Positions 21,422-27,286 of a DNA stretch of 32,886 nucleotides are shown piece by piece; position 1 is the first letter of the stretch, and each line of letters opens with the position of its first letter. Below the pieces are notes generated by a model. That model was not told where the DNA came from, searched no databases, and saw only the letters and a program-made list of their open reading frames with translations. A program made the position numbers and the translations under genes. The stretch comes from an uncultured Sphingopyxis sp. (GTDB taxonomy: Bacteria; Pseudomonadota; Alphaproteobacteria; Sphingomonadales; Sphingomonadaceae): contig CALMYE010000217.1 in the NCBI GenBank assembly GCA_937873425.1, positions 1 to 32,886 of the forward strand, read 5' to 3'.

Positions 21422-22153
21422 CTAGCCGAGCCGCATGCGAAAGGCGTCGAGGTGGAAATAGCTGGGGTCGAAATCGCACATCGCCGCGAGCGCGTCGGCG
21501 TCGAGGAAGCGAATCCACTGGCGGTGCGTCTCGATATAGCCCTCGCGCACCAGCCGGCGCAGCACGCGGTTGGTGTGGATCGGGGTCAGCCCCAGCGTGT
21601 CGGCGATCTGCGTTTGGGTCAGCGGCAGGCGCATCGCGTCGTCGTTCGCCAGATTGACGATCTGCGCGCGGCGGTGGAGTTCGAGCAGCAGGTGGCCGAT
21701 CCGCTCCTGCGCCGTCTGCCGCCCGTTGCGGACGATCTGTTCGCGCAGGAACGCCTCTTCCTGCACCTGCGTCCACCAGAAGGCCATGGTCAGCGACCCC
21801 GAACCCGCGAGCAGTTCGCGCACCGCCTGCGGCGGGATCGCATAGAGCGACCCCTGGGTGACCGCCAGTACGCCATGATCGGCCTCCGCCGCGACCAGCA
21901 CCTGCAGGTCGAAGATGTCGCCGGGCAGCAGGATGTTGAGGATCTGCCGCCGCCCGTCCTCGAGCTGCTTGAAGCGCGCGGCCCAGCCTTCGCGCATCAC
22001 CAGCACCGCATCCATCCGCTGGCCCGCGCCGATGATCTCGCTGTTCGCCGCGAAGCCGCGCACCTTGCCGCCGAGCGCGAGCAGCCGCGCCCGGTCGCCG
22101 TCGCCGAGCCGACTGTAATAGGAAAGGCGCGCGACCAGCGCTTCGAGCGTCAT
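21422..22153 (-). CDS. Crp/Fnr-family transcriptional regulator
   Basis: 243 residues from ATG 22153. The cyclic-nucleotide-binding-like beta-roll covers about residues 15-130 (GEIIGAGQRMDAV-type strands, then LPGDIFDLQVLV), a long dimerisation helix runs through FLREQIVRNGRQTAQERIGHL, and the C-terminal winged HTH contains LPLTQTQIADTLGLTPIHTNRVLRRL. There are no N-terminal cysteines for an FNR-type iron-sulfur cluster and no clear cAMP-contact Arg-Ser pair, so the effector is unknown. It lies 30 bp after the HWE kinase gene in the same direction, linked to it by two 17-bp tandem repeats that create overlapping start/stop codons. Confidence 0.93.
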   Translation of the reverse strand: MTLEALVARLSYYSRLGDGDRARLLALGGKVRGFAANSEIIGAGQRMDAVLVMREGWAARFKQLEDGRRQILNILLPGDIFDLQVLVAAEADHGVLAVTQGSLYAIPPQAVRELLAGSGSLTMAFWWTQVQEEAFLREQIVRNGRQTAQERIGHLLLELHRRAQIVNLANDDAMRLPLTQTQIADTLGLTPIHTNRVLRRLVREGYIETHRQWIRFLDADALAAMCDFDPSYFHLDAFRMRLG

Positions 22154-22184
22154 GCCCCGTCCCCCGTCATGCCCCGTCCCCCGT
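22151..22184 (-). repeat. 17-bp tandem duplication forming a chained ATGA junction
   Basis: On the minus strand ATGACGGGGGACGGGGC occurs twice in tandem. Read in order, the kinase stop, two six-codon mini-frames (MTGDGA) and the regulator start are all joined by ATGA overlaps. Each unit also contains GGGGACGGGG, a plausible ribosome-binding sequence for the next ATG. Confidence 0.85.
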
Positions 22185-23686
22185 CATGCTTCGCGCCACC
22201 GCGCCGGCAGGGTGATGGTGCAGACGAGGCCGGTCGGCTCCCAGCGCCGCTCGATCGTGCCGCCCAGATTGTTGCGCACGCTGCGCTCCATCAGCAGCGT
22301 GCCGAAGCTCGTTCGCTCGGGCGCCGCGACCGCGCGGTTGCCGCCGGTCTCGGCCCAGACCAGGCGGAATTGCCGGTCCTCGCCCTCCCCGTCCTGCACC
22401 CAGTCGATGTCGACGCGTCCCTCCTCGCTGGCGAGCGCGCCATGCTTGACCGCGTTGGTCGCGAGCTCGTTGAACAGCAGCGCCATCGCCACCAGCGCAT
22501 TTTCGGGCAGTTCCAGATCGGGACCCGACCAGCGGATGCGCGGAAAGGCCGCCTCCACTTCGCGCATCAGCGCATGCATCGACCCGGTCAGGAAATTGGC
22601 GCCGAGCAGCACATTCTGCGCGCGGTTGAGCGCGTCGAGCCGGCTGTTGATCCGCTCGACATAATCGTCGACATCGGTCGCGGCGTGGCGGGTCAGCGAG
22701 ATGATCGCGCCCACCGTCGCGAACAGGTTGCGCATCCGGTGGTGCAATTCGCGCAGCAGGATGGTGGCATTGTCCTGCCGCTGCTTCTGCTCGGTGATGT
22801 CGATGCTGATGCCGGTCAGCATCGCATCGTCGCTGCGCACGTCCCAGTCGCCGCGCGCGGCCAGCCAGCGCACGCCCTTTTCGGGATGCACGATGCGATA
22901 TTCGGTCGCATAGGGTTCGCCGGTCGCGATCGCCTCGTCGAGCACGGCGCGGACGGCCTCGCGGTCCTCGGGGTGCAGGCGGGCGAAGAAACCCGCGCCG
23001 GTCGCCAGCGCGCTTTCATAATCGGCGCCCCACAGGTCGGTGGTCGCGCCGCGCCAGCGCAGATCGTCGGTGCGCGGGTCGAACTGCCAGCTCGCGATGT
23101 TCGAAAAGTCGAGCGCGCGTTCCAGCATGTGCCGCGCCTCGTCGCGCTCGATCCCCAGACGCCGCAGATCGGCCTCCGCCATCACGATCGCGGCGAAATC
23201 CTCGAGCCGCTCGATCTCTTCGGCTTGAAGCGGCGGGCGAACCTTGGTGTCGATGACGCACAGGGTGCCGAGCACCGATCCGTCATAGGCGCGCAGCGGC
23301 ACGCCGGCATAGAAGCGGATGTGCGGCGGGCCGGTGACCAGCGCATTGCCGCGGAACCGCTCGTCGCGCATCGCGTCGGGGACGATCAGCGGCCGCTCGT
23401 CGGCGACGGCATATCGGCAGAAGCTCATCTCGATCGGCGTTTCGGCGGTATCGAGGCCATGGGCCGACTTGAACCACTGGCGGCAGTCGTCGACCAGCGA
23501 CACCAGCGTGATCGGCGCGTCGAACAGCCCCGCGACCAGCTTGGTCACCCGGTCGAAGGCCGGCTCCGGCCCCGTATCCATGATGCGATATTCGCGCAGC
23601 GTGCGCAGCCGCCGCCGCTCGTCCTCCACCCGGTCGCGATCCCCACCGTCCGCCAAAAGCCGCCCCTTGTCCGCCTCCGGCGTCAT
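22184..23686 (-). CDS. GAF-PAS HWE-family sensor histidine kinase
   Basis: 500 residues from ATG 23686; no signal peptide or membrane segment, so a soluble sensor. A GAF domain covers about 30-170 (EPAFDRVTKLVAGLFDAPITLVSLVDD, RFYAGVPLRAYDGSVLGTLCVID). A PAS domain with PAC tail covers about 190-300 (FARLHPEDREAVRAVLDEAI, SIDITEQK). The phosphoacceptor region is LLRELHHRMRNLFATV (His315 or His316). The ATPase domain has the N-box NELATNAVKHGAL and the WxE motif (LVWAETGG) that defines HWE kinases. In alphaproteobacteria, HWE/HisKA_2 kinases are the usual phosphodonors of PhyR, and phyR is divergent here, 227 bp away. It is probably co-transcribed with the Crp/Fnr gene. Confidence 0.94.
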   Translation of the reverse strand: MTPEADKGRLLADGGDRDRVEDERRRLRTLREYRIMDTGPEPAFDRVTKLVAGLFDAPITLVSLVDDCRQWFKSAHGLDTAETPIEMSFCRYAVADERPLIVPDAMRDERFRGNALVTGPPHIRFYAGVPLRAYDGSVLGTLCVIDTKVRPPLQAEEIERLEDFAAIVMAEADLRRLGIERDEARHMLERALDFSNIASWQFDPRTDDLRWRGATTDLWGADYESALATGAGFFARLHPEDREAVRAVLDEAIATGEPYATEYRIVHPEKGVRWLAARGDWDVRSDDAMLTGISIDITEQKQRQDNATILLRELHHRMRNLFATVGAIISLTRHAATDVDDYVERINSRLDALNRAQNVLLGANFLTGSMHALMREVEAAFPRIRWSGPDLELPENALVAMALLFNELATNAVKHGALASEEGRVDIDWVQDGEGEDRQFRLVWAETGGNRAVAAPERTSFGTLLMERSVRNNLGGTIERRWEPTGLVCTITLPARWREA

Positions 23687-23913: not shown

Positions 23914-24702
23914 ATGAGCCTGGGTGAAGAAATCCGCGGCCATCTGCCCTTTCTGCGCCGCTATGCGCGGGCGCTGACCGGCAGCCAGCAGCATGGCGAC
24001 AATTTCGTCCACACCCTGCTCGAAGTGATCGTCGCCGCGCCCGACGAGTTCCGCTCGGGCGACGGCATCCGCATCGACCTCTATCGCGCCTTCCACCGCA
24101 TCTGGGAAAGCGCCTTCATCGACGAGGGCGAGGTGGACGACAGCGACGCCTTCGTCCGCGCCGCGACCCGCCGCCTCTCGCGCCTGACCCCGCTCGGCCG
24201 CCAGATATTGCTGCTGACCGCGCTCGAGGGCTTCTCCACCGACGACGCCGCGCGGATCACCGGCACCGATCCCGCCACCGTCGAGACGCTGCTGGGCGAA
24301 GCGGTCGCCGGCCTCGACCGCGAATCGCGCACCTCGGTGCTGATCATCGAGGACGAGCCGCTGATCGCGATGGAGCTGGAACAGATCGTCCGCGGCCTGG
24401 GGCACGAGGTCGCCGGCGTCGCGGCGACCCACGACGCCGCCGTCGCCGCCTTCGAGGAAAGCGAGGCCGGGCTCGTGCTCGCCGACATCCAGCTCGCCGA
24501 CGGCTCGTCGGGGATCGACGCGGTGCAGGATATTCTCGCGATGGCGCCGGTGCCGGCGATCTTCATCACCGCCTTTCCCGAACAATTGCTCACCGGCCAC
24601 CGCGTCGAGCCGACCTTCCTGATCTCCAAGCCGTTCCGCGAGAATACGGTGCGCGCCGCGATCAGCCAAAGCCTGCTGTTCACGCCGCAGCTCGCGGCCT
24701 GA
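23914..24702 (+). CDS. phyR: General stress response regulator PhyR (sigma-like + receiver)
   Basis: 262 residues. PhyR is the anti-anti-sigma factor of the alphaproteobacterial general stress response. Residues 1-135 mimic an EcfG sigma factor (sigma2-like LRRYARALTGSQQHGDNFVHTLLE, sigma4-like LTPLGRQILLLTALEGFSTDDAARI). Residues about 140-255 form a receiver domain with acidic pocket VLIIEDEP, phosphoacceptor Asp191 (LADIQLADG), and the FATGUY-type motif FITAFPE (217-223) followed by the conserved Lys in LISKPF. Phosphorylation opens the protein so the sigma-like part binds NepR. NepR and EcfG are 1.7 kb downstream, and an HWE kinase is divergent. Confidence 0.97.
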   Translation: MSLGEEIRGHLPFLRRYARALTGSQQHGDNFVHTLLEVIVAAPDEFRSGDGIRIDLYRAFHRIWESAFIDEGEVDDSDAFVRAATRRLSRLTPLGRQILLLTALEGFSTDDAARITGTDPATVETLLGEAVAGLDRESRTSVLIIEDEPLIAMELEQIVRGLGHEVAGVAATHDAAVAAFEESEAGLVLADIQLADGSSGIDAVQDILAMAPVPAIFITAFPEQLLTGHRVEPTFLISKPFRENTVRAAISQSLLFTPQLAA

Positions 24703-25091: not shown

Positions 25092-25706
25092 CTAACGCCC
25101 CGGAACGCCGCCCGAGGTCAGCGCATCGACATCGTCCATGATCGCGGCGAAGACTTCGCTCGCCGGCGCGGGGGCGCCGCTGCGCAGCGGCATGTCGCCG
25201 CTTTCCAGTATCGCGTGGAGCGCGCTGCGCGCCCGCGACACCCGGCTCTTCATCGTGCCGACCGCGCAGCCGCATATCGCCGCCGCCTCCTCGTAGGAAA
25301 GCTGCCCGGCGCCAATCAGCACCAGCGCCTCGCGCTGGTCGACGGGCAGCAGCATCAGCGCGCGCTGGACGTCGGCGAGGTGCAGGCTGTCGTCCTGGTC
25401 GTCGGGCGCGACGAGCAGCCTCTCCGCCGCGATCTCGTCGTAATCGGCGGTGAATTTCTTGCGCCGCATCTGCGACAGGAAACAGTTGCGCAGGATGACG
25501 AAGGCCCAGCTTTTCATGCTCGACGGCCCCGGAATATATTGCGCGCGCGCCTTCCACGCCTTCAGCATGGTCTCCTGCACCAGATCGTCGGCCAGGTCGG
25601 CGTTGCCGCACAGGCTGCGCCCGAAGGCGCGCAGGTGCGGCAACATGGCGGCCAGTTCGCGCTTGAAGGTCGCGTCGTCGAGCGGCTGAGGCGTATCGCC
25701 GGTCAC
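25092..25706 (-). CDS. EcfG-type sigma factor, stand-alone paralogue
   Basis: 204 residues from GTG 25706. It is an ECF15 (EcfG) general stress sigma factor. Region 2 is LRAFGRSLCGNADLADDLVQETMLKAWKARAQY plus SWAFVILRNCFLSQMRRKKF. Region 4 is LPVDQREALVLIGAGQLSYEEAAAICGCAVGTMKSRVSRARSAL. The C-terminal extension ASEVFAAIMDDVDAL is shared with its paralogue at 26651. It is not followed by its own NepR. The upstream gene on the same strand is the BLUF protein, 114 bp away. A 16-codon frame (25753 to 25703) with Arg-rich product ends in a GTGA overlap with this start. Confidence 0.95.
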   Translation of the reverse strand: MTGDTPQPLDDATFKRELAAMLPHLRAFGRSLCGNADLADDLVQETMLKAWKARAQYIPGPSSMKSWAFVILRNCFLSQMRRKKFTADYDEIAAERLLVAPDDQDDSLHLADVQRALMLLPVDQREALVLIGAGQLSYEEAAAICGCAVGTMKSRVSRARSALHAILESGDMPLRSGAPAPASEVFAAIMDDVDALTSGGVPGR

Positions 25707-25820
25707 GGGATGCGCCGCTCCGGGCGCCTGAGCCGTGCCATGAGGGTCTTCATTATCATCTGCCCCCCGCTTAGCCCGTTCGCCGGACGATGCAAACCAC
25801 TATGCGGCGCACCCATGCGC

Positions 25821-26225
25821 TCATCCCGGCTTGCCATGCCGCCCGAGCGCGAGGAAATTCGCCATCAGCCGCGCATCCTGCGGATCGAGCGCGCCGCGCG
25901 CGGCGAGCCGCGAGAGATCATCGTCATGATCGCGGAACAGCGGGCTGTAGAGCATGGAGAATGCCGCGAATTCGCGTTCGTCGACGAGGCGGCGCCGGAT
26001 TTCGATCATCCCGTTGTGCCGCCGGTCGGCGCGAATCCGCGCAAGACACGCCTCGGCCTTCGCGATCGGCCCTTCGAGCAGCTGCATGAAATTCTGGCCG
26101 TTGTAGATCAGCGCGCCGGTCAGCGCATCGCGCGCATTGTTCGCCTGCGCCTGCTCGACCAGCGCGGCGATGTCGCCGTCCCCCAGCTTCGGGTCCGCGA
26201 CGCTGACATAGACGACCGATAGCAA
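25821..26225 (-). CDS. Short BLUF-domain blue-light receptor
   Basis: 134 residues from TTG 26225 (GGGGAGGG eight bases upstream); an ATG at 26276 is in frame but has no ribosome-binding site. BLUF domains bind FAD and report blue light through a hydrogen-bond switch. The key residues align with AppA at a constant offset of 15: Tyr6 (AppA Y21), Asn30 (N45) and Gln48 (Q63) in VVYVS, QANNARDALTG and FMQLLEG. Met91 matches M106, but Phe89 replaces the semi-conserved Trp104. A C-terminal helical part of about 35 residues follows, with no effector domain. It lies between two EcfG genes and reads toward the stand-alone one, so a role in general stress signalling is inferred. Confidence 0.9.
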   Translation of the reverse strand: MLSVVYVSVADPKLGDGDIAALVEQAQANNARDALTGALIYNGQNFMQLLEGPIAKAEACLARIRADRRHNGMIEIRRRLVDEREFAAFSMLYSPLFRDHDDDLSRLAARGALDPQDARLMANFLALGRHGKPG

Positions 26226-26363
26226 GACGCGACCCTCCCCGCGCCGCGAAGCGCGGCGCCCGGCAATGGTAGCCACGCCCGCCGCAACGCGCGCTAATCT
26301 GGGTTAGAAAGCCGCGGGCGTGCTTTTCCGGCAACACGGTCCGTCGCAAAAAACAACGCGCCG

Positions 26364-26388
26364 GGAACCCGGCGTCATTTTTTTCGTT
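26364..26388 (+). promoter_or_regulatory. EcfG-dependent promoter of nepR-ecfG
   Basis: GGAAC (26364-26368), exactly 16 bp, then CGTT (26385-26388): a perfect match to the general stress response promoter consensus. Transcription would begin near 26394-26397. It indicates positive autoregulation of the nepR-ecfG operon. Confidence 0.85.
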
Positions 26389-26420
26389 CAACGGGCATGG
26401 CAACGCATGGAGATCATAGG

Positions 26421-26654
26421 GTGAAAGGCGGCAGCACGCCGCACACAGCGGCCAACGGCGCGCGCCCGGGCGCAGGGAGCTTTCCCGGCACCGGCGGCGA
26501 TCAGTGGCACCGCGCGCTGACCGGGCGGCAGTCGCCCGAGCCGGTGAGCACGAAGCTGCGCATCATCTATGGCAATATCGTCGCCGAACAACTGCCCGAC
26601 CGGATGCTCGACCTTCTCTCGCAGCTCGACCAGAAAGCGCCCGGCCGCAAATGA
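26421..26654 (+). CDS. nepR: Anti-sigma factor NepR
   Basis: 77 residues from GTG 26421, preceded by GGAG at eight bases. An ATG at 26397 is in frame but would sit at or beside the predicted transcription start. NepR binds and inhibits EcfG until phosphorylated PhyR titrates it away. The first 40 residues are Gly/Pro-rich and probably disordered. The conserved core STKLRIIYGNIVAEQLPDRMLDLLSQLD forms the two helices that clamp either EcfG or PhyR. The stop overlaps the ecfG ATG (ATGA), the usual coupled arrangement. Confidence 0.93.
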   Translation: MKGGSTPHTAANGARPGAGSFPGTGGDQWHRALTGRQSPEPVSTKLRIIYGNIVAEQLPDRMLDLLSQLDQKAPGRK

Positions 26655-27286
26655 CGCAGAGCGGAGCCGCCACGCGGCCGGAGGGAAGCGCAAGCCTCTC
26701 CGACCGCGAGTTCAAGACGTTGCTCGCCGGGGTCATCCCCCATCTTCGCGCCTATGGCCGCAGCCTGTGCGGCAATCCCGACCTCGCCGACGACCTGACG
26801 CAGGACACGATGGTCAAGGCGTGGGCCTCGCGCGAGCGGTTCGAGGCCGGCACCTCGATCAAGGCGTGGACCTTCGTCATCCTGCGCAACACCTTCCTGT
26901 CGCAGATGCGGCGCAACAAGTTCGTCGGCGACTATGACGAAAATGCGGTCGAGCGCACCCTGGCGACCCCCGCCGCGCAGGAGGATTCGGGCGGCATGGC
27001 CGACCTGCAACGCGGGTTGATGGAATTGCCGCAGGACCAGCGCGAGGCGCTGATCCTCGTCAGCGCGGGCGGCCTGTCCTATGAGGAGGCGGCGCATATC
27101 TGCGGCTGCGCGCTCGGCACGATGAAAAGCCGGGTGTCGCGTGCGCGCTCCGCGCTCGAAGAGATCATGGCGCGCGGCCAATTCTCCCAGACCCGCGCCG
27201 AAGCGGCGCCGGCGAGCGAGGCGATCGACGCGATCATGGACAGCGTCGAGACCATCACCGCCCGCCACGAGGCGCGCGGACGCTGA
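26651..27286 (+). CDS. ecfG: General stress response sigma factor EcfG (coupled to NepR)
   Basis: 211 residues from ATG 26651, inside the ATGA overlap with nepR. Region 2 is LRAYGRSLCGNPDLADDLTQDTMVKAWASRERF plus TFVILRNTFLSQMRRNKF. Region 4 is LPQDQREALILVSAGGLSYEEAAHICGCALGTMKSRVSRARSALEEI. The tail ASEAIDAIMDSVETITARH parallels that of the other EcfG 1 kb away. It should direct RNA polymerase to GGAAC-N16/17-CGTT promoters, including the one in front of nepR. Coupling to nepR makes it the likely main NepR target; whether NepR also binds the paralogue is open. Confidence 0.96.
   Translation: MTQSGAATRPEGSASLSDREFKTLLAGVIPHLRAYGRSLCGNPDLADDLTQDTMVKAWASRERFEAGTSIKAWTFVILRNTFLSQMRRNKFVGDYDENAVERTLATPAAQEDSGGMADLQRGLMELPQDQREALILVSAGGLSYEEAAHICGCALGTMKSRVSRARSALEEIMARGQFSQTRAEAAPASEAIDAIMDSVETITARHEARGR

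Follow-up and report, generated by a model that had tools for sequence, protein, structure and literature searches.

The BLUF Gene and the Surrounding Stress Locus

The stretch of DNA analyzed here (the window; 32,886 nucleotides from an uncultured Sphingopyxis sp., contig CALMYE010000217.1 of assembly GCA_937873425.1) encodes a PhyR-NepR-EcfG general stress response locus, comprising a nepR-ecfG operon with an EcfG-type promoter and, close by, genes for PhyR and an HWE histidine kinase. A gene for a short BLUF protein lies on the minus strand (25821–26225; 134 aa) between two EcfG-type sigma factor genes: ecfG2 (25092–25706) on the same strand, and ecfG1 in the divergent nepR-ecfG1 operon on the plus strand. 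This placement had been proposed in a sequence-only reading of the window, and both the coordinates and the Pfam matches bear it out. ecfG2 was assigned from its Pfam matches, and its position corresponds to that of the gene for EcfG2, which acts as master sigma factor of the stress response in S. granuli TFA (PMC7083833). The anti-sigma factor NepR (26397–26654; 85 aa) matches the Pfam NepR family (PF18557; E = 1.3e-8, 34.8 bits against a cut-off of 25.7), and scores far under the cut-off of the NCBIfam NepR model. Its gene overlaps by four bases with ecfG1 (26651–27286), the product of which is above the Pfam cut-offs for Sigma70_r2, Sigma70_r4_2, and PhyR_sigma2; no NCBIfam equivalog was found above cut-off for the sigma factors.

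The anti-anti-sigma response regulator PhyR (23914–24702, plus strand) is identified by Pfam and by NCBIfam NF006623 (341.9 bits, cut-off 240), and is followed toward lower coordinates by a histidine kinase gene on the minus strand (22184–23686) with GAF, PAS_3, and HWE_HK domains in Pfam. No light domain was called in this kinase by Pfam, and by eye its sequence has no LOV cysteine motif; the protein is thus a GAF and PAS_3 kinase rather than one of the LOV-HK type, in which a LOV domain is joined to an HWE/HisKA2 kinase. Its C-terminal part is closest to two models, PRK13559 and BluLightHisKinLov (the latter a LOV kinase model), but reaches the cut-off of neither. A Crp/Fnr-type regulator (21422–22153) comes after the kinase gene, and is also present in G089, a genome of a second Sphingomonadaceae genus discussed below.

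The BLUF protein matches Pfam PF04940 at 85 bits (E = 3.9e-24; cut-off 25), and this is its sole Pfam domain, in agreement with the earlier claims of a BLUF identity and a missing output domain. The open reading frame originally proposed (25821–26276, with no strand given) exists, but the likely start is an internal TTG at 26225, which shortens the gene: a Shine-Dalgarno-like GGAGGG (26233–26238, minus strand; CCCTCC on the plus strand) lies seven bases ahead of it, and TTG occupies the equivalent position in 41 of 46 orthologues. Counted from this TTG, the proposed register of photocycle residues is exact, with Tyr6, Asn30, Gln48, and Met91 present in the window protein and in 45/45 open orthologues (the broken copy in L188 was left out of the residue counts). 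Residue 89, which corresponds to AppA Trp104, is Trp in 36/45 open orthologues and Phe in the other nine, the window protein included. The predicted structure, of modest confidence overall (mean pLDDT 76.5), has a BLUF fold with C-terminal helices at residues 101–109 and 115–127, both of low confidence, and a second domain is absent, as expected of a short BLUF protein. The best Foldseek match is Tll0078 (1x0p), with TePixD also at the top and Slr1694, BlsA, and BlrB lower; the closest solved structures are thus short BLUF proteins of the PixD type. Flavin photochemistry of the window protein is predicted. The source genome (92% complete) has one BLUF match in its assembly, and by comparison the reading frame is not a chance reading, because 46 of the 74 genus genomes with the locus have an orthologue at this place.

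Conservation and Loss Within Sphingopyxis

Of 80 Sphingopyxis genomes sampled, 74 hold the ecfG2-nepR-ecfG1 arrangement, and 46 encode a BLUF orthologue (45 with at least 56% identity, and one, L188, broken into two pieces), while three further genomes have distant BLUF proteins alone. S. terrae and S. bauzanensis are among the BLUF-bearing species. All 46 orthologues are located in the slot between ecfG2 and nepR-ecfG1, and none was found outside the stress locus among the 80 genomes. The sequence-only reading had staked its proposal on a neighborhood shared beyond a single strain; this is the case, since the neighborhood is conserved in Sphingopyxis and recurs in a second genus, although 28 of the 74 loci are missing the BLUF gene. 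The median dN/dS among open copies is 0.26 (174 of 990 pairs had a usable dS), from which the Sphingopyxis BLUF gene is judged to be under purifying selection. Distances in the BLUF tree correlate with those in the stress-protein tree (Spearman 0.72, 990 pairs), which fits vertical descent.

Presence and absence of the BLUF gene amount to 13 changes on the stress-protein tree. With this tree rooted on L214, which is itself BLUF-less, the nine earliest-branching rows are all BLUF-bearing. Six BLUF-less loci (L150, L157, L164, L173, L190, and L194) retain the leader motif that precedes the BLUF gene elsewhere, and three of these (L150, L190, and L194) also retain the BLUF ribosome site and first codons; no leader or remnant trace was detected in the other 22 of 28, in a search for which shuffles gave 0.0 matches and the positive control did not work, as the stretches end before the BLUF codons. 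Together, the tree pattern and the gene remnants at L150, L190, and L194 (three of 28 BLUF-less loci) suggest that BLUF was probably an early member of the locus and was then lost several times, while ecfG2, nepR, and ecfG1 stayed.

To describe the wider neighborhood, we used 20 genomes selected for a BLUF gene on a long contig (so that BLUF is present in 20/20 by construction). In all 20, ecfG2, nepR, and ecfG1 are adjacent. Within 10 kb of the BLUF gene are phyR and the kinase gene (17 genomes), GSDH and lipase (18), ligase (16), thioesterase (12), ThrDH (10), HIBDH (8), Crp (3), MBL exonuclease (3), and GNAT (2, from a possibly poor query trimmed by script). Since BLUF lies between two conserved core genes in Sphingopyxis, part of its linkage there comes free by inheritance. 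We also examined 832 residue states of EcfG1, EcfG2, NepR, PhyR, and the kinase for co-variation with BLUF loss; the best reached about 4/8 independent pairs, and naming a BLUF partner by this route was dropped.

Recurrence in a Second Genus

Among 144 other-genus genomes with a BLUF match, BLUF and EcfG positions could be crossed in 111 (144 rows). Among the matches listed, one of 99 other-genus family genomes with both genes has them linked (G089, 900 bases apart), and the next-nearest distance is 20.8 kb. In other families, none of 21 alphaproteobacteria with BLUF and an EcfG-like sigma factor had the two within 25 kb. Across 396 sampled genomes of the order, no BLUF protein outside the two genera scored above 134.5 bits, and no stress gene was seen within about 1.5 kb of BLUF in the other-genus loci L007–L031 and L253–L267. 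The linkage of BLUF to the stress locus was thus found in two genera only. A C-terminal NF-x-L motif was considered as a signature of the stress-locus proteins and rejected, since comparable C-termini occur in other short BLUF proteins from the family.

In the genus of G089, EcfG occurs in 17 of 32 genomes, and in 15 of these 17 the BLUF gene precedes nepR-ecfG, oriented in the same direction and 272 to 529 bases before nepR, whereas in Sphingopyxis it is divergent. In a sixteenth genome (G383) the BLUF gene is beside nepR and ecfG, on another contig (L304); the last, G381, is without BLUF. A profile of this BLUF type (A3) scores at least 155 bits in 16/17 EcfG genomes and in 0/15 EcfG-less genomes, where the best BLUF reaches 108 bits (Fisher p = 5.7e-8, uncorrected for descent). 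The profile was built with 11 of the 16 proteins, and the five outside it (G377, G378, G383, G386, and G389) reach between 155 and 194 bits. The 15 remaining genomes (G374, G278, G203, G380, G243, G385, G388, G390–G395, G153, and G397) gave no EcfG match at E = 1e-30; 13 of them are at least 99% complete, and these absences look like losses of the general stress sigma factor. In a tree with 18 of the 45 Sphingopyxis copies, the BLUF proteins of Sphingopyxis and of the second genus fall into one group each (SH-aLRT 99 and 95, respectively), and a test of one versus separate origins gave p-AU = 0.53. Genes upstream of BLUF are conserved in 14 of 16 second-genus loci, compared with 15 of 16 for BLUF itself; since these neighbors are kept about as often, it is the co-occurrence with EcfG, and not synteny alone, that forms the argument.

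In eight of the second-genus loci (L225, L227–L232, and L238) the gap between BLUF and nepR holds a small reverse-strand reading frame of about 71–73 aa (NLKMEGEGSREGSRRFQ...; the frame is longer in L228). An EcfG-type site points at it in 7/8 of these loci, and the NLKMEGEGSREGSRRFQ frame is likely a stress-regulon gene by this feature.

These comparisons bear on what the BLUF protein might contact. It could feed light to the kinase and PhyR side of the pathway, as a detached sensor subunit of the GAF-PAS-HWE kinase or of PhyR. LOV-HWE kinases are the known flavin receptors of the stress response in other alphaproteobacteria (PMC12148442, PMC4438053), the local kinase has the sub-cut-off resemblance to a LOV kinase noted above, and phyR and the kinase gene, besides being near BLUF in most of the long Sphingopyxis contigs, are at the locus in 16/16 second-genus cases. 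However, in four of the 46 BLUF-bearing Sphingopyxis loci (L155, L170, L174, and L202) phyR and the kinase gene were not found within the fetched stretch, and the BLUF gene nonetheless remains between ecfG2 and nepR. A role on the kinase side is therefore unlikely in our estimation, and EcfG2 or NepR would be the likeliest partner, because BLUF keeps its place between their genes where phyR and the kinase are not found beside the locus.

Alternatively, the BLUF protein may have an unrelated target, its gene having been caught between stress genes and carried along with them. The patchy presence of BLUF while the stress genes stay, the lack of co-varying sites and of an EcfG-type promoter of its own (see below), and the comparable retention of other second-genus neighbors would all fit such a bystander. 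This reading has more difficulty with the recurrence in a second genus, in the other orientation and in step with EcfG (16/17 versus 0/15), and with the finding of no orthologue outside the locus in any of the 80 Sphingopyxis genomes, set against a background linkage of one in 99 (among the matches listed) and none in 21; we consider it doubtful.

Copies Without the Photocycle Tyrosine

The residues Tyr, Asn, and Gln are kept in 13 of the 16 second-genus copies in the locus. The exceptions, from G089, G378, and G386, have Phe in place of Tyr6, with Ser for Asn30 in two of the three and Met91 lost in two of the three. Pairwise dN/dS values among them are 0.13–0.22 at a dS of 1.2–1.3, which is near saturation, and these tyrosine-less copies look constrained on that measure. 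Each of the three genomes also encodes a Tyr-bearing BLUF relative elsewhere (L317, L318, and L330). In L317 and L330 this second BLUF gene adjoins a gene for a 452-aa protein which by eye resembles a metallo-beta-lactamase/rhodanese fusion; no partner candidate was recognized among the neighbors in these two loci.

Since three copies in the locus have lost the photocycle tyrosine, light sensing is not the purpose of the protein in every genome. These copies are either being lost, or their fold serves the locus in a way that does not need light. In AppA, a triple mutant with this Tyr to Phe change among its substitutions is photoinactive, retains flavin, and is lit-state-like (PMC7005313). Extended to the linkage as a whole, this would make the protein mainly a light-independent flavin switch (redox or temperature) or a scaffold acting on the stress regulators, for which the constrained Phe6 copies and the AppA mutant both speak. 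Against it stands the retention of Tyr, Asn, and Gln in every open Sphingopyxis copy and in most of those of the second genus, and as a general account we regard it as improbable.

Promoters and Intergenic Elements

An EcfG-type promoter of nepR-ecfG1, GGAAC-N16-CGTT, can be read from the sequence at 26364–26388 (plus strand). A GGAAC-N-GTT site upstream of nepR occurs in 74/74 genus loci, at position -33 or -34 in 73 of them, and the identical form is described upstream of S. granuli TFA nepR2, where ecfG2 is expressed constitutively and EcfG2 drives nepR2-ecfG1 (PMC7083833). By pattern search, an EcfG-type site pointing at BLUF is absent in 40 of the 46 BLUF-bearing loci, the window included. 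The remaining six have a reverse match to a loose EcfG pattern, and in all six it overlaps the nepR site; an EcfG promoter for BLUF was accordingly rejected. That the BLUF gene is an output of the pathway, an EcfG regulon member sharing its intergenic region with an EcfG-type promoter and in six loci matching the loose pattern on the reverse strand, is thus very improbable, given the 40 loci with no such site and the overlap in the other six. As no EcfG-type promoter serves it, the BLUF gene is probably expressed independently of stress, and looks like an input rather than a regulon member.

The gap between BLUF and ecfG2 (25707–25820) contains a conserved promoter-like site for ecfG2 on the minus strand (TTTGCAT ... 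GCTAAG). Its strict form (TTGC..N14-18..CTAA) is found in 47 of 74 loci, compared with 0.16 in shuffles; by BLUF status, the pattern is upstream of ecfG2 in 38/46 loci with BLUF and 9/28 without. A single sigma70-like promoter type for BLUF itself was also considered and rejected, as the same pattern precedes BLUF in just 16/46 loci (0.1 in shuffles) and the window lacks it.

Upstream of the BLUF gene, the window has a palindrome, CTAATCTGGGTTAG, at 26294–26307 (either strand), which takes the form CTAA-N6-TTAG in the clade of the window, and one CTAA half of which aligns with a -10-like CCTAATC of other clades. In many of those other clades (e.g., L152 and L193) a different palindrome, TGTGAGGGGTCACA, separates the -10-like box from the ribosome site of BLUF, and this leader pattern occurs in 20 of the 46 BLUF-bearing loci. 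Both palindromes are possible operators of some repressor, judging from their form and position. A further block, TTTTTTGCGACGAA-TGCGTTGCCAAGAAGCCACA (reading toward BLUF), is located at 26320–26353 in the window, where it is partly diverged. It is retained upstream of the nepR promoter in L142–L217, in BLUF-bearing and BLUF-less loci alike, and is perhaps a binding site controlling nepR-ecfG1.

Comparison With Known Systems

The window protein resembles the short BLUF receptors BlsA (Acinetobacter), PixD/Slr1694/Tll0078 (cyanobacteria), and BlrB (Rhodobacter) in having a single BLUF domain and a short, helical C-terminus. It differs from them in its C-terminal sequence, which is NF-x-ALGRR in Sphingopyxis, and in the location of its gene inside a NepR-EcfG locus. 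Antagonism of a transcription regulator through contact with a BLUF protein is how AppA acts on PpsR in Rhodobacter. The BluF-BluR system of E. coli works in this manner (PMC3509220), and the contact envisaged for the window protein would be similar in kind; BluF and AppA, however, contain additional domains and target repressors rather than a sigma/anti-sigma pair. Among the short BLUF proteins, BlsA binds the regulator Fur in darkness, and more weakly under blue light (PMC5955987).

There is also a functional likeness with the LOV-histidine kinases (Caulobacter LovK, Brucella LOV-HK, and Rubellimicrobium RT-HK), which are flavin blue-light receptors tied to PhyR-NepR-EcfG (PMC4844311, PMC4438053, PMC12148442); here, the tie comes from gene comparison, the receptor is a BLUF protein, and a kinase domain is absent. 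In Caulobacter, the effect on the stress pathway is seemingly light-independent according to a review (PMC4844311). A kinase-free flavin photoreceptor that feeds a general stress sigma factor is known in YtvA of B. subtilis (PMC4844311), much as the BLUF protein may do here, although YtvA is a LOV protein acting through the stressosome on sigma-B, and these proteins are unrelated to those of the present locus.

In gene order and in its EcfG-type promoter, the window resembles the nepR2-ecfG1/ecfG2 locus of S. granuli TFA, where EcfG2 serves as a constitutive master sigma factor. With consecutive locus tags from 1161 to 1164 (nepR2 is SGRAN_1162 and ecfG2 is SGRAN_1163), the TFA locus is a BLUF-less version of the arrangement (PMC7083833).

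A literature search, in which few subscription journals were covered, found no BLUF protein linked with EcfG, NepR, PhyR, or a sphingomonad stress sigma factor, and within that coverage it agrees with the earlier claim that no BLUF protein has been reported in a PhyR-NepR-EcfG system. For BLUF together with Sphingopyxis, the accessible text yielded a soil metagenome match only. Two co-mentions of BLUF and PhyR proved unrelated in the portions available: "phyr" in PMC11796379 is the Phyre2 program, and PMC3230580 names both in separate places.

A Proposed Light Input to the General Stress Response

Taken with the gene comparisons, the most probable explanation, in which we place reasonable though incomplete confidence, is that the stand-alone BLUF protein is an accessory blue-light input to the PhyR-NepR-EcfG switch in Sphingopyxis and a related genus, with the sigma/anti-sigma arm as its likeliest partner. 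Because it has no kinase domain, the protein would have to act by contact. Made independently of stress, it would bind one of the proteins of the switch to a degree set by light, by analogy with BlsA and its partner, and this binding would shift the amount of free EcfG sigma factor. The contact would most likely be with EcfG2 or NepR, with the kinase as the main alternative; the photochemistry, the light effect on the stress response, the direct contact, and the partner are what we infer, while genome comparison establishes the slot, conservation, purifying selection, patchy occurrence, and second-genus recurrence of the gene. A more specific version can be offered only tentatively: BLUF would bind NepR or EcfG2 in a light-dependent manner, bypassing the kinase and PhyR, and the tyrosine-less receptor of one second-genus lineage would be a constitutive, possibly lit-like regulator within the locus.

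The flavin receptors that the literature search tied to the alphaproteobacterial stress response are LOV kinases. If the proposed input is real, a short BLUF receptor encoded beside the sigma/anti-sigma genes, in a genus common in the environment, would provide another, kinase-free route for light. S. granuli TFA, with its BLUF-less locus, has lacZ reporters for both sigma factor genes (PMC7083833), so that the proposal is testable at once. Furthermore, the natural losses of the gene and the constrained tyrosine-less copies may offer a ready comparison between light-driven and light-blind versions of one regulator.
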